The notes beneath the pieces were generated by a model. The model was not told where the DNA came from and made no database searches. It saw only the letters and a program-made list of their open reading frames with translations. Positions 3,299-29,427 of a stretch of DNA of 30,450 nucleotides are shown one piece after another. The stretch lies in IMG/VR virus record IMGVR_UViG_3300042314_000291, positions 1 to 30,450 of that record. One strand, written 5' to 3'. A program made the translations under genes and the position numbers. Source of the stretch: a virus. Numbering within the stretch: position 1 is the first letter of the stretch; the number at the start of each line of letters is the position of its first letter.

Positions 3299-3312
3299 TG
3301 TTAGACAATGCG

Positions 3313-3320
3313 TATAACGT
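3313..3320 (+). promoter_or_regulatory. Candidate leaderless promoter for mom-like gene 1
   Basis: TATAACGT holds two overlapping -10 choices (TATAAC 3313-3318, TAACGT 3315-3320), ending 9 or 7 bases before ATG 3328. TTGCAT (3292-3297) lies 17 bases before TAACGT but matches the -35 consensus poorly. No ribosome-binding site precedes the ATG, and a terminator lies directly upstream, so a local promoter giving a nearly leaderless transcript is plausible. Confidence 0.4.
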
Positions 3321-3327
3321 CAGTGAC

Positions 3328-3996
3328 ATGAAGCAGATGCAATGGCAGTCAAGTTTCTTTGACGTGCTAGACGGATACTCAGTTGCACCGATACAAGCTC
3401 AGGATGCTGATTACTTAATTCTCAATGTTCATTACGCAAAGCGCAGACCTTCAATCACTCATGCCTTTGGATTGTTCAATTCAGGTGAGTTAGTCGGAGT
3501 AGTTACTTATGGAACTCCAGCATCATCTACTTTGTTGCGCGGTATCTGTGGTGACGATTGGGCGCAACACGTTTTAGAGCTGAACCGTTTGGTGTTAGTT
3601 AATAACCAACCACATGAAGCCAGCCGATTAGTCGGAGCATCACTCAAGCTATTACCTAAGCCAAGCATCATTGTTAGTTATGCAGACACAAAGCAAAAGC
3701 ATGAAGGCATTGTTTATCAGGCTACGAACTTTATTTATACAGGATTGAGCAGCAAGTTTCGTGATCCAGTAGTTCGTGGTTTAGAACATCAGCACCACGC
3801 AACTTACGCGCATGGCTTGACTAACGCGCAGCTTATAGAAAAGTATGGTGCAGACAATGTTTACTTTATTGAGCGATCTAGAAAGCACCGTTACATAATC
3901 TTTGTTGGTTCAAAGACTCAACGTAAACAAATGCTTAAAGACTTGCGGTATGAAATTCAGCCGTATCCAAATAAAGAAAGGTCTGCCAGTGGCTGA
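3328..3996 (+). CDS. Mom-like DNA adenine modification protein (paralog 1)
   Basis: A 222-residue protein of the GNAT-like Mom family. Mu Mom converts adenine in DNA to N6-acetamidoadenine (methylcarbamoyl form), shielding phage DNA from restriction. Motifs here: N33-x-H-Y36, V-G-V-V-T-Y-G, L-x-R-L-V-L-x-N, and a signature block starting S117-Y-A-D120 and running through K-Q-x-H, Y-Q-A-x-N-x-I-Y-T-G, S-S. The C terminus has K-H-R-Y and ends in P-Y-P-N. The same blocks occur in the protein at 11672-12325. The frame is open to a TTG at 3292, inside the terminator; ATG 3328 is preferred. It overlaps a ribbon-helix-helix gene by 8 bases. Family assignment is from motif recognition; the exact chemistry is not shown. 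Confidence 0.75.
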   Translation: MKQMQWQSSFFDVLDGYSVAPIQAQDADYLILNVHYAKRRPSITHAFGLFNSGELVGVVTYGTPASSTLLRGICGDDWAQHVLELNRLVLVNNQPHEASRLVGASLKLLPKPSIIVSYADTKQKHEGIVYQATNFIYTGLSSKFRDPVVRGLEHQHHATYAHGLTNAQLIEKYGADNVYFIERSRKHRYIIFVGSKTQRKQMLKDLRYEIQPYPNKERSASG

Positions 3997-11156: not shown

Positions 11157-11675
11157 ATGACTGAACTGCGCATTGAAACTGTAAACATAAACAGCTTGAC
11201 CTTTGATCCTGCTAATGCTCGAAAGCATGACGGCAAGAATCTGAAAGCAATAGCAAGCTCATTAGAAAAATTTGGGCAACGTAAGCCAATTGTTGTAACG
11301 CCTGACTCGATAGTTGTAGCCGGCAACGGAACACTAGAAGCTGCAAAGTCTTTAGGCTGGTCAGAGATCGCAGTGGCTCGAACACCTATTGGCTGGACTT
11401 GGGATCAAATCAAAGCCTTTGCTTTAGCTGATAACAGAACAGCAGAACTTGCAGAATGGGATGCAGACGTTCTTAAAGAACAAATGTTAGAGCTAGATGC
11501 TAACGGCTGGGAATTAGAGGAGTTAGGTTTTGAATCTTTGCAACCGCCTAGTGATCCTGAGTTTCTGCCAACTATGGAAGAACAGCCAAGATTAGATGAA
11601 CTAAAACCAACAACTTGCCCTAATTGTTCTTTTGAATGGCGCACAGACTCCAAAGGCAACATAGAGCCAGTATGA
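11157..11675 (+). CDS. ParB/Srx-domain protein with C-terminal CxxC
   Basis: A 172-residue protein. It has the ParB-N core: N-A-R-K-H (20-24), I-A-S-S-L-x-x-F-G-Q-x-K-P-I-V-V, G56-N-G-T-L-E-A-A63 in place of the G-E-R/H-R box, and A-D-N-R-T-A-E-L-A-E-W-D (91-102), typical of phage ParB-like proteins linked to DNA modification. The C terminus has C144-P-N-C147 and an S-K-G-N end that may form half a zinc site. It overlaps the mom-like gene as ATGA, so the two are co-translated. In phages, ParB-like proteins associate with DNA methylases and other modification genes; acting as the DNA-targeting or nucleotide-switch part for the Mom-like enzyme is inference. Confidence 0.85.
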   Translation: MTELRIETVNINSLTFDPANARKHDGKNLKAIASSLEKFGQRKPIVVTPDSIVVAGNGTLEAAKSLGWSEIAVARTPIGWTWDQIKAFALADNRTAELAEWDADVLKEQMLELDANGWELEELGFESLQPPSDPEFLPTMEEQPRLDELKPTTCPNCSFEWRTDSKGNIEPV

Positions 11676-12325
11676 CAATTCAAATAGCAGGAGTAGATCA
11701 CAAGACTGCTCAGTTTGCAGTTATGAACTTTCATTACTCGCAACAAATGCCAATTGGAAAGTTAATTAAATTTGGTGTTTGGGAAGATGAAAAGTTTATT
11801 GGTGCTGTGCTTTATGGTCGTGGAAGTTCACCACTCTTAGGTGCTGCTTATGAACTACAACAAACAGAAGTTTGTGAATTAGTTAGAGTTGCTTTGACAA
11901 ATCACAAAGCACCAGTTAGCCAAATTGTCAGCTTGACTATGAAGCAATTAAAACTAGACAATCCAAAAATGCGCTTGATAGTTTCTTTCGCTGACTCTAG
12001 GCAGAATCATCATGGTGGTATTTATCAAGCTATGAATTGGATTTACACAGGCAAGAGCAGTGAAGCAAAAGAATACTTTTATCAAGGTAAGTGGTATCAC
12101 CAAAGAATGATTGGAAAGACTGGATTTGGTGGGGATACGGTTTTATCAAAGCTGACAGATGAAGAAAAAAAGAACTTGATAGTCCGAAAGATTGACGGCA
12201 AGTATCGTTACTTGTATCCTCTTGATAAGCAGATTAGAAGAAAAATTGTTAAACTAGCGTTACCTTATCCCAATGCCGTTGAGGGCTTAGAAGTAAGCCA
12301 CGACAATTCCGTTGTCGAGGTGTAA
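11672..12325 (+). CDS. Mom-like DNA adenine modification protein (paralog 2)
   Basis: A 217-residue GNAT-like protein of the Mom family, starting at ATG 11672 (ATGA overlap with the ParB-like gene; the frame upstream to 11636 is inside that gene). Motifs shared with 3328-3996: N19-x-H-Y22, K-F-G-V-W, F-I-G-A-V-L-Y-G, E-L-V-R-V-A-L-T-N, and the signature S105-F-A-D108 followed by R-Q-N-H-H-G-G-I-Y-Q-A-M-N-W-I-Y-T-G-K-S-S, then K-Y-R-Y and P-Y-P-N near the end. Mu Mom adds a carbamoylmethyl group to adenine N6, protecting DNA from nucleases. This copy sits next to terminase, so it is probably expressed late, before packaging. Substrate is unproven. Confidence 0.8.
   Translation: MTIQIAGVDHKTAQFAVMNFHYSQQMPIGKLIKFGVWEDEKFIGAVLYGRGSSPLLGAAYELQQTEVCELVRVALTNHKAPVSQIVSLTMKQLKLDNPKMRLIVSFADSRQNHHGGIYQAMNWIYTGKSSEAKEYFYQGKWYHQRMIGKTGFGGDTVLSKLTDEEKKNLIVRKIDGKYRYLYPLDKQIRRKIVKLALPYPNAVEGLEVSHDNSVVEV
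12284..12317 (+). repeat. Two tandem perfect hairpins at the end of mom-like gene 2
   Basis: GGCTTA-GAAG-TAAGCC (12284-12299) is followed after one base by CGACAA-TTCCG-TTGTCG (12301-12317). Both are 6-bp perfect stems with small loops, in the last codons of the mom-like gene and about 50 bases before the small terminase gene. There is no T-run. They might be a processing site, a translational control element, or part of the packaging region. Confidence 0.45.
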
Positions 12326-20461: not shown

Positions 20462-21637
20462 GTGTCAAAACCCTTAGCAATCGGATGGAACAGCAACGCA
20501 CCTTGGGCTGCAACTGGTTATGGAACTCAAACAGCGCAAGTAACCCAGCGACTAAAAGAGCTTGGTCACGATGTAGCGATCTTTAACAACTACGGTCTAG
20601 AGGGAAGCAACACAGACTGGAACGGGATGACCGTTTATCAACGTGGCGCGGACTTGTATTCAAATGATGTAGTTCCTGCACACATGCACGATTGGACTAC
20701 ACGCCACCCTAAGCAGGGTCACATTCTTTTTACTCTCTATGATGTATGGGTTTTCAAAGGTGATCGTTGGTCTGACTGGAACGTGGCTAGCTGGGTTCCA
20801 ATAGATCACATTCCTGCACCGCCAGAAGTAACTAGGTGGCTAGCACAAGACTTTGTAACGCCTATTGCTATGAGCCAATACGGGCAGTCAATGATTGAAA
20901 ATGTAGGCATTGAATCGCTTTATGTGCCACATGGAATTGAGTCAGTCTTTAAGCCAATGAAACGCCATAAAGGAACTACTGGCAGAGATTACATAGGCAT
21001 TGGCGAAGATAAATTTGTTGTAGGAATGAACGCAGCTAATAAAGGTGTTAGCCCTAATCGCAAGGCATTTGGTGAGAACATTCTGGCGTTCTCTATGTTT
21101 GCACAGAAACATGATGACGTAGTTCTTTATCTGCATACTGATCAGCTTGGCTCACTCGGCGGAATTAAGTTAATGCAGTTGCTTCAATCTTGTGGAGTTC
21201 CTGAGGACAAATTTAAGTTTGTTGAGCCATACACTTATCGGACTGGTATTGACCAGCAGACTTTAGCCACGATCTATACGGCTATGGATGTATTGCTTGC
21301 TACTTCATACGGCGAGGGTTTTGGTATTCCAACTATTGAAGCGCAAGCCTGTGGAACACCTGTAATCGTTAGCGACTTTGCAGCTTCAACAGAGCTACTA
21401 GGTGACGGCTGGCTAATTGACGGGCAACCGCTTTGGGATGCACCGCAGTCATCTTGGTTCCACATGCCTAGCGTTCCTGCAATCGTGGATGCACTAGAGC
21501 AGGCTTATCAGCGTGGACGTGGCAGATCAGAAAAGGCACAAGAGTTTGCTAAGGCGTATAACGCCGATACCGTCTTTCAGCAGCATTGGAAGCCAGCTTT
21601 AGCAGTCTTAGAAACTAAAGCCTACGAGCGACTATAA
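20462..21637 (+). CDS. GT-B glycosyltransferase (GT4-like)
   Basis: A 391-residue protein starting at GTG 20462 after AAAGGA. The N-terminal glycine-rich loop G-W-N-S-N-A-P-W-A-A-T-G-Y-G-T-Q binds the acceptor side; the C-terminal nucleotide-sugar site has the E-x7-E motif E285-G-F-G-I-P-T-I-E293-A-Q-A-C-G-T-P-V-I. This is the retaining GT4 pattern. It probably transfers a sugar from a nucleotide-sugar donor. First gene of a four-gene sugar block between capsid and connector genes; modification of virion proteins is the simplest role, DNA or host glycan modification being alternatives. Confidence 0.85.
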   Translation: MSKPLAIGWNSNAPWAATGYGTQTAQVTQRLKELGHDVAIFNNYGLEGSNTDWNGMTVYQRGADLYSNDVVPAHMHDWTTRHPKQGHILFTLYDVWVFKGDRWSDWNVASWVPIDHIPAPPEVTRWLAQDFVTPIAMSQYGQSMIENVGIESLYVPHGIESVFKPMKRHKGTTGRDYIGIGEDKFVVGMNAANKGVSPNRKAFGENILAFSMFAQKHDDVVLYLHTDQLGSLGGIKLMQLLQSCGVPEDKFKFVEPYTYRTGIDQQTLATIYTAMDVLLATSYGEGFGIPTIEAQACGTPVIVSDFAASTELLGDGWLIDGQPLWDAPQSSWFHMPSVPAIVDALEQAYQRGRGRSEKAQEFAKAYNADTVFQQHWKPALAVLETKAYERL

Positions 21638-21639
21638 GC

Positions 21640-22443
21640 ATGAAAATAGGCTGGTACACGCATCACATAGAGAATGCGCCTAAAGTGGCTCACGGTGGCT
21701 CTGTGAGTCCCAGAGGGCTATTCACGGGGCAGTTCGCAGGTGGGGCTGAAATGTCTGACTATGAATACCGTTTACAAGCTCCTCTAGATTATGAGATCGA
21801 AATTGTCACCCCATACACATTCGATACACACGACATACACCAATTTGATTCAGTCATAGTCACAGGCACAGATGCGTTCACGGAGGCTCAGCTATACAGA
21901 CTGGCAGAGTATGACCCATTTGTATTCGTGCATCACTTACAAACCCCACGCGCAGGGCTTAATGCTTTGATTCGTGGCTCTCGCTTATTCGCAACCCATA
22001 CCCCTGCACACATGCGCAGAGAGTTATCTTGGACAAAGCCACGCAAGACAGCGCAAGTTCTAAGCTACTTTGATACGAGCAAGTGCTACGACCACATGGA
22101 CAAGAAACCAATAGCACTATGGGCTGCTAGGAATCATCCGCTAAAGGGGCAGCTACGCGCTCACGCTTGGGCAGCACAAGCAGGTTATGAGTTCAAAGCT
22201 CTGACAGATGTACCGCGTGAACAGGTACTAGATGCAATGGCAAGAGTCGAATGGTTTGTGCATTTACCATTAGCCTTTGAGTCAGAATGTCGCGCAGTAA
22301 TGGAAGCGGTGCTTTCAGGTTGCAGGATTCACACGAACGAGAACGTAGGAATTACTAGCGTTGAAGATTGGCATGATGCAGATGCATTGCGCCACATGAT
22401 AGATAAGGCAGGCGATACATTTTGGAAACTGGTGCAGCAATGA
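21640..22443 (+). CDS. Second GT-B-like glycosyltransferase
   Basis: A 267-residue protein. N-terminal G-G-A-E-M-S-D sits where GT-B enzymes bind acceptor. The C-terminal H-L-P-L-A-F-E-S-E-C-R-A-V-M-E-A-V-L-S-G-C matches the donor-site helix with E spacing like E-x7-E. It is shorter than usual GT4 enzymes (about 350-400) and may be compact or act with the upstream transferase. Begins two bases after the previous stop; ATGA overlap with the next gene. Confidence 0.7.
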   Translation: MKIGWYTHHIENAPKVAHGGSVSPRGLFTGQFAGGAEMSDYEYRLQAPLDYEIEIVTPYTFDTHDIHQFDSVIVTGTDAFTEAQLYRLAEYDPFVFVHHLQTPRAGLNALIRGSRLFATHTPAHMRRELSWTKPRKTAQVLSYFDTSKCYDHMDKKPIALWAARNHPLKGQLRAHAWAAQAGYEFKALTDVPREQVLDAMARVEWFVHLPLAFESECRAVMEAVLSGCRIHTNENVGITSVEDWHDADALRHMIDKAGDTFWKLVQQ

Positions 22444-23114
22444 GAATGCTTACAATCATTCCGACAAGAGGGCGCAACGATAACGCCATTAGATTATTTG
22501 AAGCTATCAACGCAACGGCAGACTTTACAGAAGTCATCTTTGCAATAGATGCAGATGACGTTAAAACATATAACGGACTCATGGCAGAAACTGCTGGGCT
22601 AAATAACGTCAAGGTTTGCATTGCTGATCGTATGGGGATGAACGGCACACTTAACCACTGGGCTTTATGGTTTGCGCCTGACTATGATTACATCTGTTTT
22701 ATGGGTGATGATCACCTACCGCGCACAGGTGGCTGGGATACGAAACTTGCAGAAGCTATTGGGACTGAGCCGGGCATTGCTTATGGAAACGATTTACTGC
22801 AAGGCGAGAACCTACCAACTGCCGTAGTTATGTCTAGCAAGATCATTAGGGCTACTGGATTTATGTCACCGCCAGCCTTAAAGCACTTGTTCCTAGATAA
22901 CTACTGGCTTGCAATGGGTCACGCTTTAGAGAACGTGAACTACTTGCCAGAGGTAATCATTGAACACTTGCACTACACAAACGGTAAGGCAGCCCATGAC
23001 GATAGATACGCAGCTGTAAACACCGTTGAGATGCACAATGGCGATCAGGCTATCTTTGCTGAATACCTAGCCACAGAATTTAGCAATGACGTTGAGAATG
23101 TAAAGGCTTGGTAA
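22440..23114 (+). CDS. GT-A glycosyltransferase (family 2-like)
   Basis: A 224-residue protein from ATG 22440 (ATGA overlap; the frame upstream lies in the previous gene). N-terminal I-I-P-T-R-G-R-N-D-N-A, then I-D-A-D-D (about 36-40), and the metal-binding D-x-D-type motif M-G-D90-D91-H-L-P. These are features of GT-A inverting transferases. The C-terminal part (W-L-A-M-G-H, H-Y-T-N-G-K) probably shapes the acceptor site. Acceptor is unknown. Confidence 0.78.
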   Translation: MRMLTIIPTRGRNDNAIRLFEAINATADFTEVIFAIDADDVKTYNGLMAETAGLNNVKVCIADRMGMNGTLNHWALWFAPDYDYICFMGDDHLPRTGGWDTKLAEAIGTEPGIAYGNDLLQGENLPTAVVMSSKIIRATGFMSPPALKHLFLDNYWLAMGHALENVNYLPEVIIEHLHYTNGKAAHDDRYAAVNTVEMHNGDQAIFAEYLATEFSNDVENVKAW

Positions 23115-23974
23115 TGAAGATTCTTATTACAGGGCATAAGGGTTTCGTAGGTCGTAACTTTGTTAAGGCTTTGCCAGATAGCGACATAACAGGCATTGAC
23201 CTAAAAGACGGCAATGATTGCAGGGATTTCTTCAAAAGCAATACAGATCAGTTCGATCTAGTAATTCACTTAGCAGCCATTGTTGGTGGTCGCGCAACTA
23301 TTGAGGGTGAGCCACTAAGCGTAGCCACAGACTTATCCATAGATGCAGAGTTCTTTAACTGGGTGCAAAAGACTAAGCCTAAGAACGTGGTCTACTTTTC
23401 TAGCTCGGCTGCTTACCCGATTGACTTGCAGAACTCACACCGCAGACACCGCCTAGCTGAATACGACTTGAATCTAGATGGCGTTAGGAATCCAGACCTA
23501 ACTTATGGCTGGGCAAAACTTACCGGGGAATACCTAGCGCAGTTTGTAACTGACTCAAACGTGTTTGTCTTTAGACCTTTTAGTGGTTACGGATCAGACC
23601 AAGATGCTGACTATCCGTTTCCTAGTTTCATTGACCGCGCTCTAGCCAAGGTAGAAGTCTTTGACATTTGGGGTGACGGTGAGCAAGTGCGCGACTTCAT
23701 CCACATTGAGGACATTGTTCAAGCTGTGCTGTGGCATGTTCAGACTGGGTACTTTGGCACGTTTAATCTATGTTCAGGCTTTGCCACTAGCTTCAATGAC
23801 CTTGCTCAAATGGTCTGCGAGGAAGCAGGCATCAAACCAATCTTTAACCACATAGTGACTGCGCCTACTGGGGTTGAGTATCGCGTTGGTGATTCGCATT
23901 TATCGCATCAGTATTTTATTCCGCAGATTACTTTGCGTGAAGGTATCCGTAGGGCATTAGCAGAACGCAAGTAG
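23114..23974 (+). CDS. NAD-dependent nucleotide-sugar epimerase/dehydratase
   Basis: A 286-residue extended short-chain dehydrogenase. Rossmann G7-H-K-G10-F-V-G13 binds NAD(P). H-L-A-A-I-V-G-G, S-S-S-A-A-Y-P and catalytic Y131-G-W-A-K135 are the family signatures, with R-P-F-S-G-Y-G and R-D-F-I-H-I-E-D-I as the sugar-nucleotide parts. Reaction is a change in a nucleotide sugar (epimerization or dehydration), supplying a donor for the neighbouring transferases. Start ATG 23114 overlaps the previous stop (TAATG). Confidence 0.9.
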   Translation: MKILITGHKGFVGRNFVKALPDSDITGIDLKDGNDCRDFFKSNTDQFDLVIHLAAIVGGRATIEGEPLSVATDLSIDAEFFNWVQKTKPKNVVYFSSSAAYPIDLQNSHRRHRLAEYDLNLDGVRNPDLTYGWAKLTGEYLAQFVTDSNVFVFRPFSGYGSDQDADYPFPSFIDRALAKVEVFDIWGDGEQVRDFIHIEDIVQAVLWHVQTGYFGTFNLCSGFATSFNDLAQMVCEEAGIKPIFNHIVTAPTGVEYRVGDSHLSHQYFIPQITLREGIRRALAERK

Positions 23975-25437: not shown

Positions 25438-25689
25438 ATGAAGATCAACCTGCGCGTTACTTTTAATGATGAATCGGTAGAAGAAGTATCTGCTACTGCG
25501 CGTGACCTTGTTGCCTTTGAGGACAAGTTCACCAAGTCTGTTGCTTCGCTTGAAACAGATTTTCGGATTACCGATTTATTATGGCTTGCATGGCACTGGT
25601 TAGAACGTCAGGGTAAAACCAAAAAGACGTTTGAAGATTGGTGCGATGACGTAGAAACCATTGAAGCGAGTGAACAAAGCCCAAAATAG
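25438..25689 (+). CDS. Tail assembly chaperone, short form (gpG-like)
   Basis: An 83-residue protein; M-K-I-N-L-R-V-T-F-N-D-E-S-V-E-E-V and L-L-W-L-A-W-H-W-L-E-R-Q-G are typical for the N-terminal chaperone of actinophages. Ends E-A-S-E-Q-S-P-K at a TAG right after the frameshift heptamer. It coats the tape measure and recruits tube subunits. Confidence 0.85.
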   Translation: MKINLRVTFNDESVEEVSATARDLVAFEDKFTKSVASLETDFRITDLLWLAWHWLERQGKTKKTFEDWCDDVETIEASEQSPK

Positions 25690-25838
25690 TTGGGTTGGGC
25701 GATAGTTCCCAACACTGGTATTTGGCTTATCTTGCGTGTGAAACTGGTATTGCTCCATCAGTTTTAATGCAAGAATCTGAGCGTATGCTTTTTACTATGA
25801 GCATGTACCTGCGTTGGAAAAACAGTCAGGGGAACTAA
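25438..25838 (+). CDS. Tail assembly chaperone, frameshifted long form (gpGT-like)
   Basis: Slipping back one base at 25680-25686 joins 83 residues to a 50-residue extension beginning I-V-G-L-G-D-S-S-Q-H-W-Y-L-A-Y-L-A-C-E-T-G and ending W-K-N-S-Q-G-N, stop 25836-25838. The extension has no good start codon of its own and includes the short S-Q-H-W-Y-L-A-Y pattern seen in long chaperones of related phages. The product is 133 residues. The stop overlaps the next gene's ATG (TAATG). Confidence 0.85.
25680..25713 (+). promoter_or_regulatory. Programmed -1 ribosomal frameshift signal
   Basis: The heptamer C-CCA-AAA (25680-25686) is in the right phase (frame codons CCA, AAA, TAG). Seven bases later a perfect 6-bp hairpin begins: GTTGGG (25694-25699), 8-base loop, CCCAAC (25708-25713). 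This is a textbook slippery site with a downstream structure, at the normal place in a tail chaperone gene. Confidence 0.88.
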
Positions 25839-26359
25839 TGGCTATCAGTCAATACATCACAGGTCGTGCCGGTGGTGCTGCCGTACAGATCGAAATCGAA
25901 GGTTTGTATTCTGCCCTAGCTCGTTGGTCTAAAGCCGACCCAATGTTTAATAAAGAGATACGCAAGGCATCTGTTCATTTAATCGGTCAGGTGGTTACTG
26001 AAGTTCAGGCAAGTGCGCCTAATGCTCCTAATCCACGTCAGGCAATCGAATCAGCTAGAGGATTCAGGGCAAGACCAGACCGTGTCCCGGTAATCAGATT
26101 AAGCAGTTCTTCTAACTTCGTATCTCAATCACGCCCTAACCGTAGGCGTAAGACAAAGGTTACTCGTGGCGATGTGTTCTTTGGTGCTGAATTTGGCTCT
26201 AACCGTCTAAAGCAATTCCCTGCCCGTTCCCCTAAGTTGGGTGGTGGCAATAGGGGTTATTTCTTCTGGCCTACTATTGAGCGCATGGGGCCTAAGATCA
26301 ACGCAGAATACCTAAAATCCCTAGATTCCATACTGGCGAATCTAACCAGAATGCGCTAG
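25838..26359 (+). CDS. HK97 gp10-like neck/tail component
   Basis: A 173-residue protein from ATG 25838 (the frame upstream to TTG 25814 lies within the chaperone). Helical N terminus, A-S-V-H-L-I-G-Q-V-V-T-E-V-Q-A-S-A-P-N-A-P-N-P-R, a basic R-P-N-R-R-R-K-T-K-V, F-F-G-A-E-F-G-S, F-F-W-P-T-I-E-R-M-G-P-K-I pattern, which resembles HK97 gp10-type proteins. Such genes are usually before the tail terminator; here it follows the chaperones. Confidence 0.65.
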   Translation: MAISQYITGRAGGAAVQIEIEGLYSALARWSKADPMFNKEIRKASVHLIGQVVTEVQASAPNAPNPRQAIESARGFRARPDRVPVIRLSSSSNFVSQSRPNRRRKTKVTRGDVFFGAEFGSNRLKQFPARSPKLGGGNRGYFFWPTIERMGPKINAEYLKSLDSILANLTRMR

Positions 26360-26368
26360 ACATACCGT

Positions 26369-26385
26369 ATAACATCTGCTAACGT
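26369..26385 (+). promoter_or_regulatory. Candidate promoter for the primase-like gene
   Basis: TATAAC (26368-26373) and TAACGT (26380-26385) are -10-like. TAACGT ends 7 bases before ATG 26393, the same TAACGT-N7-ATG layout as before mom-like gene 1 (3315-3328). No ribosome-binding site is seen. Which box is used cannot be told. Confidence 0.4.
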
Positions 26386-26392
26386 CTGACGT

Positions 26393-27118
26393 ATGTACGC
26401 AGTTAAGTGGTGGTCTGTCAAGGACAACAAGCCAAAGCCCTATGCCGATACTTGGGCTGACTTTGTAGCTTCGCTTTCTAAGCACGCTGAACGTGAGGAC
26501 AAATACAAAGGGCATCTATACAGCCCAGTTACCTATGTTGAGAACGGTTATCGCGGTAATAAGAACGTCATTGCCATTAACGCATTCGTTGCTGATCTAG
26601 ACGGTGAAGAACTAGCCGATACCTTAGATAAACTGCAAGGCTACGAATACATTGCCTATACGACTTACAGCCATAAGGAAGATGACCAGCACTGGCACAT
26701 TGTCATTCCTTTTGATGAACCCGTACCTAGCCATCAGTGGTACTCAGTCTGGAAGCAGATGCACGACTTCCTAGACATTGTTGGTGACCCACAGACCAGT
26801 GACCCTGCCCGTATTTTCTTTGCACCACAGCACGCACCTAACGCTGTGTTTCATACCTTGCGTGGACACGGTGAGATTATGCAAGCACCTGAGTTTAGGT
26901 ACACAGACAGACCACCTGTAAGCCTTGCAAGACGTGAGCCACAAAGAGCAGTAGACCACTGGGAATGCAGATGCACACTAGAAAAGGTCTGCACCAAATG
27001 TGAAATAGAATTTAAGGACATTGACTTATCTAGGTACAATGGAATGAGTCAAAAAGAAATACGGCAAGACATGCGCCGTGAGTTTCTAGAGTTAATGGCA
27101 GGTGCTTCTGCCACTTAG
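26393..27118 (+). CDS. Primase-polymerase-like (AEP superfamily) protein in the tail module
   Basis: A 241-residue protein. It carries the motif order of archaeo-eukaryotic primases: A-F-V-A-D68-L-D70-G (hhhDhD), T-T-Y-S93-H94, H100-W-H102-I-V-I-P-F-D, and D135-P-A-R138-I-F-F-A-P. The pattern resembles the AEP domains of phage/plasmid replication proteins such as the NrS-1 type. The C-terminal part has C-R-C, C-T-K-C (about 192-203) for possible zinc binding, and a helical end. It has no helicase domain. It is surrounded by tail genes and a local promoter, so it looks inserted. AEP membership is by motif, not by a search. Confidence 0.6.
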   Translation: MYAVKWWSVKDNKPKPYADTWADFVASLSKHAEREDKYKGHLYSPVTYVENGYRGNKNVIAINAFVADLDGEELADTLDKLQGYEYIAYTTYSHKEDDQHWHIVIPFDEPVPSHQWYSVWKQMHDFLDIVGDPQTSDPARIFFAPQHAPNAVFHTLRGHGEIMQAPEFRYTDRPPVSLARREPQRAVDHWECRCTLEKVCTKCEIEFKDIDLSRYNGMSQKEIRQDMRREFLELMAGASAT

Positions 27119-27126
27119 GAGTTTTG

Positions 27127-29427
27127 GTGGCACAGGCAAGCAAAACTTTTGAAGTCAAATTTACAGGCAACACAACTGACCTGTCTAAGTCTTTCCAAAA
27201 GTTACAGCGCGATGCAGGCGTTTTAGGCAAGTCGGTATCCACTAGCTCTAACGTGATGCGTAACGCTCTTGCTGGCGTATCTGCTGTTGCTGTTGTGCGT
27301 GGTTTGCAGTCAGCTGTTATGGCTGCATCTAATCTTTCTGAATCTATTTCTAAAGCCAATGTTGTATTTGGTAGAAATGCTGAAGCCGTACAGAACTGGT
27401 CTAAGACCACAAGCAAGGCATTTGGTATCAACCGTCAGGCTGCACTCGAAGCGGCTGGCACTTACGGCAACTTGTTCCGCGCCTTTGGTTTAACTGAACA
27501 ACAGTCTTACTCAATGTCTACAAGCCTTGTTGAGTTGGCTGCTGACATGGCTTCGTTCAATAACACTTCCGTTGATGATGCATTACTAGCTTTGCGCTCT
27601 GGTCTATCCGGGGAAACTGAACCACTAAAGAAATTCGGTATTGCTCTTACTGACGTTCGCTTAAAAGAACAAGCAATGAGCATGGGTCTTATTAAGACCA
27701 CATCTGGCGTATTGCCACAGGCTATTAAGACTCAAGCCGCCTATGCCTTAATTATGAAAGATAGCGCACTAGCTCAAGGTGACGTATCGCGCACAGCAGG
27801 TGGACTTGCTAACCAGTTAAAATTCTTACAAGCCGGGCTTCAAGATGCTAAGGCTGGCTTTGGTGAAGCATTATTACCTGCTGCGCTTGCAGTCGTATCC
27901 GCTTTCAATGACAAGTTACTTCCTGCCATTCAACGTATTGTAGAAGCAATCAAGTTTCAGGGTGCAGAAGGTGGTCTTAAAACTTTAGGCGTTGAGATCA
28001 GCAACGTAATAAGTAATCTCAATGGAACTGCAAAGGCCGTTAAAGACTTAATCCTTGTATTTATTGGTATCAAAGTAGTTATCCCAATAGTCACCGGGTT
28101 GCGCACAGCTTGGGTAACTCTTTCTGCAACCATTGGCGCAACTGCCACAGCTACTCAGATTGCTGCTGGAGTTATGAAGTCTGCGTTGATAAGCACAGGC
28201 ATTGGTGCGCTTATCGTGGTTGCTGGTGTATTGGTAGCCAAGATTATTGACATGCGCATTCAGGCTGGCGCAACTGACAAGACTATTCGCATTATGGAAA
28301 GCAACGGAACTAAGGCGTTCCGGGGTATGTCACAGGCTGCGCAAGGCACAATCGTAACAATCAACGCCGTAGCTCTAGCCGCAAGTCGCGCTGCTGATGA
28401 ACTAGATAATGCTGGTATCAAGAGGGTTAAGCAAGGTCGAGTTCCACCTGTTGCCGTTGCAGTTCCTGAAACTGATACTGGACTGGCTGGCACAGCAGGC
28501 AAGGCTGCTAAGGCGGCTACTGCTGTTAAGGGATTAAGCGAAGCCGGGAAGTTAGCGCAACAAGCAATGGCTAAGTTAGGCGATGAACTAGCTCGTAGCA
28601 ATGACATTCTTTCCAAAGCCAAAGATGCTTACGCAAACTTCAAAGACACAGTTAAGGGTGCGATTACTGGCATCATAGATTTTGGTGCTGCTGCTACTGC
28701 TGAATCTGGCTCATTTCTTGAAAACCTAGTTGCTCAAGCGGCTAAGGCTGCTGACTTTGGAAGCAAGGTCAAGCAACTTCTAGCAATGGGTCTGTCTGAA
28801 TCTGCTATTAGTCAGGTACTAGCCGCAGGCGCAGATGCTGGAACTAAGATTGCCGATGAAATTATTGCCGGTGGCGCAACTGTTGTAAATCAAATCAACA
28901 CGCTTGTTAGTGCCACCCAATCCGTAGCTGATGCCGTTGGTGAGTCGGCTGCTTCACAGTTCTACACAGCAGGTATCACCGCAGGTCAAGCCCTTGTAGA
29001 TGGTGTCAAGGCGGCTATCGCTGCTGCTGGCTTTACTATCAACGCTGACGGTTCGCTGATAAATCAGGGAGCTATCAACCAAGTCAATCAGGCTATTGCC
29101 AACGCCAGAAGCAAGAAGTCCAAAAAGGGTACAAAGATCAGTGCTGGTGAGCGCAAAGACATTCAAGCCCTTGCCGCATCTCTTGGCGTTGAAGTTCCTG
29201 CCTTTGCTAAGGGTGGCATTGTTACAGGCCCAACCCTTGCACTTATCGGTGAAGCAGGCCCTGAAGCCGTTGTGCCGTTATCAGGTCGCAATGCAGGTAT
29301 GGGCAACACATTCAACGTAACTGTGAACGCAGGTATGGGCGCAGACGGTGCTTCTATTGGTCGTGAAATTGTAGATGCCATTAAGAGATATGAACGCGCC
29401 AGTGGCCCGGTATTTGCGAGCGCGTAA
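27127..29427 (+). CDS. Tape measure protein
   Basis: A 766-residue protein from GTG 27127, five bases after AGGAG (27117-27121); TTG 27124 is too close to it. It sets tail length and is ejected into the cell. N-terminal F-E-V-K-F-T-G-N-T-T-D-L-S-K-S-F, then the minor-tail domain with F-G, A-A-D-M-A-S-F-N-N-T-S-V, L-R-S-G-L-S-G-E-T-E-P-L-K-K-F-G-I. A hydrophobic stretch (about 310-385) with several helices is the likely membrane-spanning part. The end has F-A-K-G-G-I-V-T-G-P-T, E-A-G-P-E-A-V-V-P-L. At the usual ~0.15 nm per residue it predicts a tail near 115 nm. Confidence 0.95.
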   Translation: MAQASKTFEVKFTGNTTDLSKSFQKLQRDAGVLGKSVSTSSNVMRNALAGVSAVAVVRGLQSAVMAASNLSESISKANVVFGRNAEAVQNWSKTTSKAFGINRQAALEAAGTYGNLFRAFGLTEQQSYSMSTSLVELAADMASFNNTSVDDALLALRSGLSGETEPLKKFGIALTDVRLKEQAMSMGLIKTTSGVLPQAIKTQAAYALIMKDSALAQGDVSRTAGGLANQLKFLQAGLQDAKAGFGEALLPAALAVVSAFNDKLLPAIQRIVEAIKFQGAEGGLKTLGVEISNVISNLNGTAKAVKDLILVFIGIKVVIPIVTGLRTAWVTLSATIGATATATQIAAGVMKSALISTGIGALIVVAGVLVAKIIDMRIQAGATDKTIRIMESNGTKAFRGMSQAAQGTIVTINAVALAASRAADELDNAGIKRVKQGRVPPVAVAVPETDTGLAGTAGKAAKAATAVKGLSEAGKLAQQAMAKLGDELARSNDILSKAKDAYANFKDTVKGAITGIIDFGAAATAESGSFLENLVAQAAKAADFGSKVKQLLAMGLSESAISQVLAAGADAGTKIADEIIAGGATVVNQINTLVSATQSVADAVGESAASQFYTAGITAGQALVDGVKAAIAAAGFTINADGSLINQGAINQVNQAIANARSKKSKKGTKISAGERKDIQALAASLGVEVPAFAKGGIVTGPTLALIGEAGPEAVVPLSGRNAGMGNTFNVTVNAGMGADGASIGREIVDAIKRYERASGPVFASA

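Follow-up and report, generated by a model that had tools for sequence, protein, structure and literature searches.

Based on profile matches, motif conservation and predicted fold, we confirmed that the open reading frame at 26,393-27,118 (+ strand, ATG start, 241 residues) of the viral DNA analysed here, a stretch of 30,450 nucleotides referred to as the window, encodes a stand-alone archaeo-eukaryotic primase (AEP; primase-polymerase-like) domain; its gene keeps one fixed place in the tail module, directly after a gene that we call gp10-A. The function that we favour, with modest confidence, is that of an accessory, moron-like, catalytically competent and dNTP-using AEP, which would act early and prime or fill DNA for a phage that relies on the host replisome. 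We infer the catalysis, the early timing and the action on phage DNA from the sequence.

The protein is organised as an AEP domain (approximately residues 1-170), a variable linker and a conserved C-terminal helix (approximately residues 211-240). In a profile search, the ORF matched the PHROG DNA primase family 9765 (E 2.7e-19) and, additionally, PHROGs 256 (E 2.2e-8), 2135 (E 1.6e-7) and 3228 (E 5.9e-6); these primase matches fall inside residues 31-163 and are beyond chance. No model in Pfam or NCBIfam matched the ORF, and PDB sequence searches with the protein returned nothing useful. The DLD, SH and HxH motifs, which an earlier note on this DNA had read in AEP order, are located at residues 68-70, 93-94 and 100-102 (HWH), respectively; the SH motif held in part, being present at 93-94 with an H94 that varies among relatives (149 of 154 rows). 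According to the alignment of relatives, the codons of motif I (D68-L69-D70, the predicted metal ligands) lie at 26,594-26,602 (+ strand) and those of the motif III region (D132-P-x-T-x-D137-P-A-R140) at 26,786-26,812 (+ strand), while the alignment of the tail-module proteins places H100-W-H102, in the motif II region with the predicted triphosphate-binding histidine, at 26,690-26,698 (+ strand). The extra C-terminal cysteines mentioned in the same note are also present, as CxC (192, 194) and CxxC (200, 203), and the cluster C192, C194, C200 and C203 is encoded at 26,966-27,001 (+ strand). These cysteines do not belong to a conserved AEP core: they are a lineage-specific feature of the window's own group (group 1, below), found in 29 of its 29 distinct rows, and the alignment is gapped at these positions in all other tail rows. 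A general zinc-dependent priming element was thus rejected as an explanation of the cluster.

From a shallow alignment of near-identical sequences, AlphaFold2 gave a model of low quality (pLDDT 56.4). An alignment of 64 diverse rows raised the mean pLDDT to 81.3; block means reached approximately 82-96 across AEP residues 1-160, and the prediction was poor for residues of approximately 170-210. Structure prediction had been proposed as a check of the AEP assignment, and the predicted fold was AEP-like: the top PDB match of the model was 6zp9, the AEP domain of the cyanophage S-2L PrimPol (Foldseek E 1.2e-6; Z 9.1, rmsd 3.5, 139 residues aligned), and the next matches were RepB' (Z 7.3, rmsd 4.5, 143 residues aligned) and a CRISPR-associated Prim-Pol (Z 6.7, rmsd 4.4, 137 residues aligned), followed by archaeal/eukaryotic primases and LigD.

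The functional residues of S-2L PrimPol are Y63, E85, D87, T112, K115, H118, D146, R157 and H163 (PMC8065100). Pairing by order and spacing, rather than by a residue-level structural alignment, gave Y48, D68, D70, S93, H100, H102, D132/D137, R140 and H147 as plausible counterparts in the window protein, where both D132 and D137 are candidates for the ligand aspartate of motif III. The conservation alignment comprised 154 distinct tail rows, including L232, a misfiled sequence of the cyanophage type, which leaves 153 true tail rows. Y48, D68, S93, D132, D137 and R140 are present in all 154 rows; D70 is present in 153, with E in L321; H100 and H102 are present in 153, the exception being the misfiled L232, in which H102 is replaced by R; and H147 is present in 143. 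The catalytic-type residues are hence near-invariant in the 153 distinct tail-module relatives, which is the conservation among homologs that the AEP assignment had called for. D132, D137 and R140 are also found in 28 of 28 cyanophage-type rows. Additional features shared by the relatives are the C-terminal helix, seen in the model, and W190, seen in the alignment. The median pairwise dN/dS of the AEP in group 1 was 0.096; in this and in the distance tests, ten near-duplicate loci were dropped, and for dN/dS, pairs with dS outside 0.1-1.5 were omitted. Because the catalytic-type residues are near-invariant and dN/dS is low, the AEP active site is likely to be competent, and the occurrence of Y48 at the steric-gate position suggests the use of dNTPs.

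Used as a query against viral contigs, the window protein matched 38 loci with 77-100% identity, which constitute group 1, and the group-1 alignment used as a query reached group 2, with 40-45% identity. Groups 3-5 and the cyanophage-type set were obtained with a degenerate DNA pattern for GDPxTxDxxR; among the matches listed, groups 3-5 are tail-module AEPs 34-42% identical to the window protein, and the AEPs of approximately 315 residues encoded on cyanophage-type contigs are 18-26% identical to it (A4). The five groups were set by pairwise identity and sequence pattern rather than by a tree, and their related sequences do not count as independent trials. In the stand-alone AEPs of approximately 315 residues (L200, L208, L229, L241 and L106, among others), K-x-R replaces H-x-H. 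With group-1 patterns, no AEP relative was confirmed in bacterial and archaeal genome contigs, and the plasmid matches were distant (16 records, less than 60% identity). In the phage collection, a group-4 AEP had no match and a group-3 AEP had three distant ones.

The gene order around the AEP begins with the major tail protein and tail terminator genes, identified by PHROG, which precede the gp10-A region. The tail chaperone G and its extended form G-T span 25,438-25,838 (+ strand), with the 0 frame at 25,438-25,689 and the -1 frame continuing to 25,838; the slippery sequence C CCA AAA at 25,680-25,686 makes a -1 programmed frameshift into the T-like extension likely. The -1 frame extension also occurs in relatives, AEP-free ones included, and the RNA after the slippery site was not more stable than shuffles. 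gp10-A itself (25,838-26,359, + strand), at the tail-completion/neck position, is labelled from its position only, and it matched no Pfam or PHROG family and nothing in the phage collection. Directly 3' of the AEP, the tape measure gene (27,124-29,427, + strand; PHROG 1535, E 9.4e-36) starts 6 nt past the last base of the AEP stop codon, and no + strand terminator-like site was found between the two. The placement of the AEP between a gp10-like gene and the tape measure, as given by the earlier note, therefore stands by profile for the tape measure, while "gp10-like" describes a position.

This arrangement is constant. In group 1, gp10-A is directly upstream of the AEP in 38 of 38 loci and the tape measure is downstream in 37 of 38, the other contig ending there. 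In group 2, gp10-A is upstream of the AEP in 7/7 and 42/42 loci of two overlapping sets, some loci having a small insert between the two genes, and in the set of groups 3-5, three loci of which belong to group 2, gp10-A is upstream in 32/32 and the tape measure downstream in 30/32. In the reverse direction, we searched with gp10-A, starting from a group-4 sequence and keeping the best 80 of at least 527 relatives: the AEP comes right after gp10-A in 78 of these 80 loci, and the two remaining contigs end 76 and 4 nt past gp10-A. The tape-measure side and the MTP are exchanged freely, and gp10-A and the AEP stay together. The absence of any separation in the 78 testable loci (from the best 80 of at least 527) exceeds the expectation from simple proximity, because the pairing spans deep divergence while the tape measure swaps. 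The AEP and gp10-A distances correlate with r 0.50 (n=28), compared with 0.45 for the AEP and G and 0.40 for the AEP and the tail terminator; this correlation, modestly above the others, leaves close co-evolution of AEP and gp10-A unsupported.

Based on these data, the view of the AEP as a stray replication gene in one phage has to be given up, as the gene has a fixed gp10-A neighbour in many phages, and a recent random moron insertion is ruled out by the constancy of site and partner in five groups. In every mapped locus, the AEP lacks the marks of a replicative primase-helicase, i.e., a fused or adjacent helicase and a place in the replication module. Two observations concern particular loci. 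In part of group 2, a gene for a CopG-type ribbon-helix-helix protein of 45-46 residues lies in the insert that follows gp10-A and overlaps the AEP start (L069:1783-1923 and L094:1258-1395), and the same insert also encodes a 73-residue protein without family. The L017/L115 contig contains an inverted repeat of the gp10-AEP region, with tail genes on both strands, and is probably an assembly artefact.

AEP-free relatives from the same phage group were gathered by a head-tail adaptor search. Among the 68 newly fetched loci, 14 carry the AEP and 31 have G and the tape measure visible without it; the rest end too early for an AEP call. In 24 of 24 inspected AEP-free loci, the place of AEP and gp10-A is filled by a gene for a protein of approximately 175-190 residues, gp10-B. 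Two gp10-B proteins match Pfam HK97-gp10_like (PF04883), one above the cut-off (E 4.2e-4) and the other just below it (E 7.6e-4), and a profile-profile comparison of gp10-A with gp10-B revealed no convincing similarity (probability 3%). The window's gp10-A (25,838-26,359) and gp10-B (L126:6041-6610 and relatives) occupy the same site after G/G-T in near-identical phages. Among 21 longer records searched whole, each of the 11 with the AEP has a single copy and the 10 without it have none at all; as all of these are linear contigs and some are short, this absence from the rest of the genome is firm only for the four AEP-free records of approximately 31-34 kb (G012-G015).

When the window was compared gene by gene with six AEP-carrying and four AEP-free records (31-35 kb), the two sets were fully separated by gp10-A and the AEP only. 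All four AEP-free records contain the initiator, annealing protein, RusA, SSB and major capsid genes, and three of the four contain the large terminase; one distant AEP-carrying record, of group 2, has no replication homologs. As the same replication genes occur in AEP-free relatives, the AEP is accessory rather than a required primase, and an essential replicative primase was rejected, given that these relatives keep initiator, annealing protein, RusA and SSB and, firmly so in the four records of approximately 31-34 kb, have no AEP at another site. Among isolates, the nearest is Pontimonas phage phiPsal1, with a major capsid protein 45% identical to that of the window; it lacks the AEP and carries a gene resembling gp10-B (E 6e-5). 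In most AEP-free relatives, the tail terminator is approximately 70% identical to that of the window; a strict link of the AEP to the tail terminator allele was rejected, as L147 has gp10-B and lacks the AEP although its terminator is close to that of the window (87%).

Other genes of note lie elsewhere in the window. Two Mom-type genes, at 3,328-3,996 (PHROG 1384) and 11,636-12,325 (Pfam Mom, E 1.1e-47), are both patchy among relatives. A block of sugar genes at 20,462-23,974 (a group 1 glycosyltransferase, further genes and a nucleotide-sugar epimerase) is located between the capsid and head-tail adaptor genes, and phiPsal1 likewise has glycosyltransferases between its capsid and head-tail adaptor genes.

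Between gp10-A and the AEP, we identified a promoter-like element by consensus and conservation (26,357-26,392, + strand). Its -35 sequence, TAGACA (26,357-26,362, + strand), overlaps the stop of the upstream ORF, and its -10 sequence, TAACGT (26,380-26,385, + strand), follows after a 17-nt spacer and is separated by 7 nt from the ATG. In group 1, TAGACA-17-TAnnGT-7-ATG is conserved without a Shine-Dalgarno sequence, an arrangement that corresponds to a leaderless mRNA. When the + strand of the window was scanned strictly (-35 with at least 5/6 matches, 16-19 nt, TAnnnT, ATG or GTG 5-9 nt on), this element was the sole match. By eye, groups 3-5 have TTGACT-16-TACCCT or TTGCCA-17-TACGCT, followed by a Shine-Dalgarno sequence, and in group 2 TTGCAT-16-TATCCT is conserved. 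Relative to single-base shuffles, a -35 of at least 4/6 with TAnnnT precedes the AEP in 37/38 group-1 loci (shuffles 8.2) and in 29/32 loci of the group 3-5 set (5.8), and one of at least 5/6 in 27/38 (1.0) and 26/32 (0.8), respectively, the latter set including three group-2 loci. The group-2 count was not above shuffles (at least 4/6 in 9/42, with 6.8 expected; 5/6 in 0/42).

No promoter of at least 5/6 was found before the tape measure, distal tail, tail terminator and gp10 starts tested, and before G one was found in 1/36 loci of group 1; in the AEP-free relatives, the region before the tape measure had 0/18 at 5/6 and 6/18 at 4/6. In groups 3-5 (L213, L254 and others), the major tail protein gene has a strong promoter-like element as well, with 12/26 at 5/6. 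A consensus scanner with a TATAAT -10 found no + strand promoter before the AEP; the promoter assignment therefore rests on conservation and on the TAnnnT -10, which is of the actinobacterial type. We propose that the element is a putative sigma70/SigA-type promoter. The two WhiB genes of the window are consistent with an actinobacterial host. The resemblance to the region before mom-like gene 1, pointed out in the earlier note, was traced to a motif shared by both, TAGACANNNCGTATAACRTC, which occurs exactly twice in the window (3,302-3,321 and 26,357-26,376), against a chance expectation of 0.03 (100 shuffles, up to three mismatches). The GTATAAC sequence in the spacer of the AEP promoter is conserved in the AEP group and is perhaps a regulator site.

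The suggestion that the AEP is a moron was supported in part. The gene appears to have its own promoter within the late operon, with the reservation that group 2 does not rise above shuffles, and it is absent at the same site from close relatives (24/24 sites and 10/10 whole records). It has, however, neither a terminator of its own nor independence from its neighbours, its presence being locked to gp10-A. The replication genes seen in the window are an O/DnaD-like initiator, SSB, an annealing protein and RusA, and no polymerase or helicase gene was seen there. In the function that we favour, the AEP would be read from its own host-sigma (SigA/sigma70-like) promoter and, because of this promoter, would probably be produced early, and not solely along with the late tail operon; with a two-metal, dNTP-using active site, it would prime phage DNA or fill gaps, helping a phage otherwise dependent on the host replisome. 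A late role is also conceivable, and readthrough of the late operon would transcribe the AEP too. A general role in DNA repair would not account for the pairing with gp10-A.

The patchy presence in close relatives and the promoter-like element could alternatively reflect a moron engaged in conflict with the host, in which the AEP would serve anti-defence, superinfection exclusion or host takeover and would form one moving cassette with gp10-A. Such a role would fit the motif that recurs in the promoter region of a gene for Mom-type DNA modification, and also the CopG-type gene overlapping the AEP start in some group-2 loci. Morons used in conflict usually turn over, whereas the site and partner of the AEP are constant in all loci seen; the lack of a terminator-like site before the tape measure also speaks against this role, and expression in lysogeny is unsupported, an integrase or resolvase being found in 0/17 records. 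We consider this alternative unlikely.

Slightly less probable is that the AEP works with gp10-A at the head-tail neck and is carried or ejected with the genome, filling or priming the ends of the incoming DNA, for which the polymerase domain of bacterial LigD offers a comparison. The succession of gp10-A and AEP in 78 of the best 80 of at least 527 loci, across groups 34-45% identical to the window protein, is in agreement with such a partnership, as is the exchange of the tape-measure side and the MTP around a pair that does not swap. Additionally, the positional counterpart gp10-B matches HK97-gp10_like, the fold search also matched LigD polymerase domains, and ejected primases or PrimPols are discussed for polyvalent proteins in PMC5512222. 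Nevertheless, an early-type promoter of its own is unexpected for a virion protein, gp10-A is without a known family match, and the correlation between AEP and gp10 distances is only modest (r 0.50, with 0.45 for G and 0.40 for the tail terminator). The large terminase is alike in relatives with and without the AEP, so the packaging type need not differ between them. The more specific proposal that gp10-A and the AEP make one neck unit, with the primase-polymerase loaded at, or delivered with, the packaged genome end and acting at entry, is a shade more doubtful still; if true, an enzyme that synthesises DNA would here be coupled to a tail-completion protein.

It is improbable that the AEP fold has been exapted to bind nucleic acid or nucleotides without catalysis, for example as a regulator of tail genes or an assembly factor. 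The location in the tail module, the extra conserved C-terminal helix with W190, and the lack of a helicase or PriCT partner would fit such a protein, but inactive enzyme copies normally lose their catalytic positions first, and here the acidic and triphosphate-binding positions are all kept under strong purifying selection. Finally, a HUH (rolling-circle Rep) endonuclease misread as an AEP is hardly credible and was set aside: an HxH is present, so that HWH could be taken for the HUH motif, and Pfam REP_ORF2-G2P matches weakly in 6 of 19 A2 members (best E 0.029), but the fold search favours AEPs over pMV158 RepB (Z 3.5, rmsd 4.1, 96 residues aligned, against Z 9.1 for the best AEP), DxD is invariant, and the replacement of the second histidine by R in cyanophage-type relatives fits triphosphate binding by an AEP rather than metal binding by a HUH protein.

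AEPs form a known superfamily; among the papers that the literature searches listed, none was found with a single-domain AEP that keeps a fixed tail-module position and is linked to one gp10 type. By title or abstract, no description of an AEP in a phage tail module was found, and the word "primase" is absent from the main text of two papers on freshwater phages (PMC6802176 and PMC10202952). Sister phages with and without gp10-A and the AEP together provide a natural experiment on a primase-polymerase. They raise the questions of what a phage gains from an AEP when it already replicates through its host, and whether assembly of the virion or entry of the genome can be functionally linked with an enzyme that synthesises DNA.

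Among known systems, S-2L PrimPol (6zp9; PMC8065100) has the same set and order of catalytic-type residues as the window AEP, including the Y steric gate and the H/R/H triphosphate set. PMC8065100 describes S-2L PrimPol as the sole candidate polymerase of S-2L, and as a multi-domain protein in which PriCT-2 and a C-terminal domain accompany the AEP. The window AEP, in contrast, is a single-domain protein, 12% identical to S-2L PrimPol over the aligned part, and it lies in a tail module, with relatives that have the same replication genes and no AEP. The primase-helicases of PHROGs 9765, 256, 2135 and 3228 have profiles of 713-939 positions, of which the window AEP matches approximately 115-130 residues; they are annotated as replication proteins, whereas the window AEP has no helicase part and is found among tail genes. 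The AEP fold is also shared with RepB' (3h20 and 3h25; Z 7.2-7.3, rmsd 3.9-4.5, 140-143 residues aligned), a plasmid replication primase with 7% identity to the window AEP.

The closest stand-alone relatives among the matches listed are the cyanophage-type AEPs of approximately 315 residues, such as the "DNA primase" of Phage C48C1, whose gene is located two genes after the DNA polymerase and beside a methyltransferase gene. They share with the window AEP the DxD motif, mostly S93, D132/D137, R140 and W190, and differ from it in having K-x-R for H-x-H and a longer C-terminus. The AEP fold is likewise found in the CRISPR-associated Prim-Pol (Z 6.2-6.7, rmsd 4.4-4.6, 134-137 residues aligned) and the LigD polymerase domain (Z 5.1-5.7, rmsd 3.8-4.1, 128-137 residues aligned); by reading the ORFs of the window, no ligase, Ku or CRISPR partner was noticed. 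Many phage AEPs have helicase, PriCT or zinc partners, and the window AEP stands without them. AEPs are replication and repair enzymes, unexpected among tail genes, and here one of them occupies one site in five divergent groups of aquatic phages.
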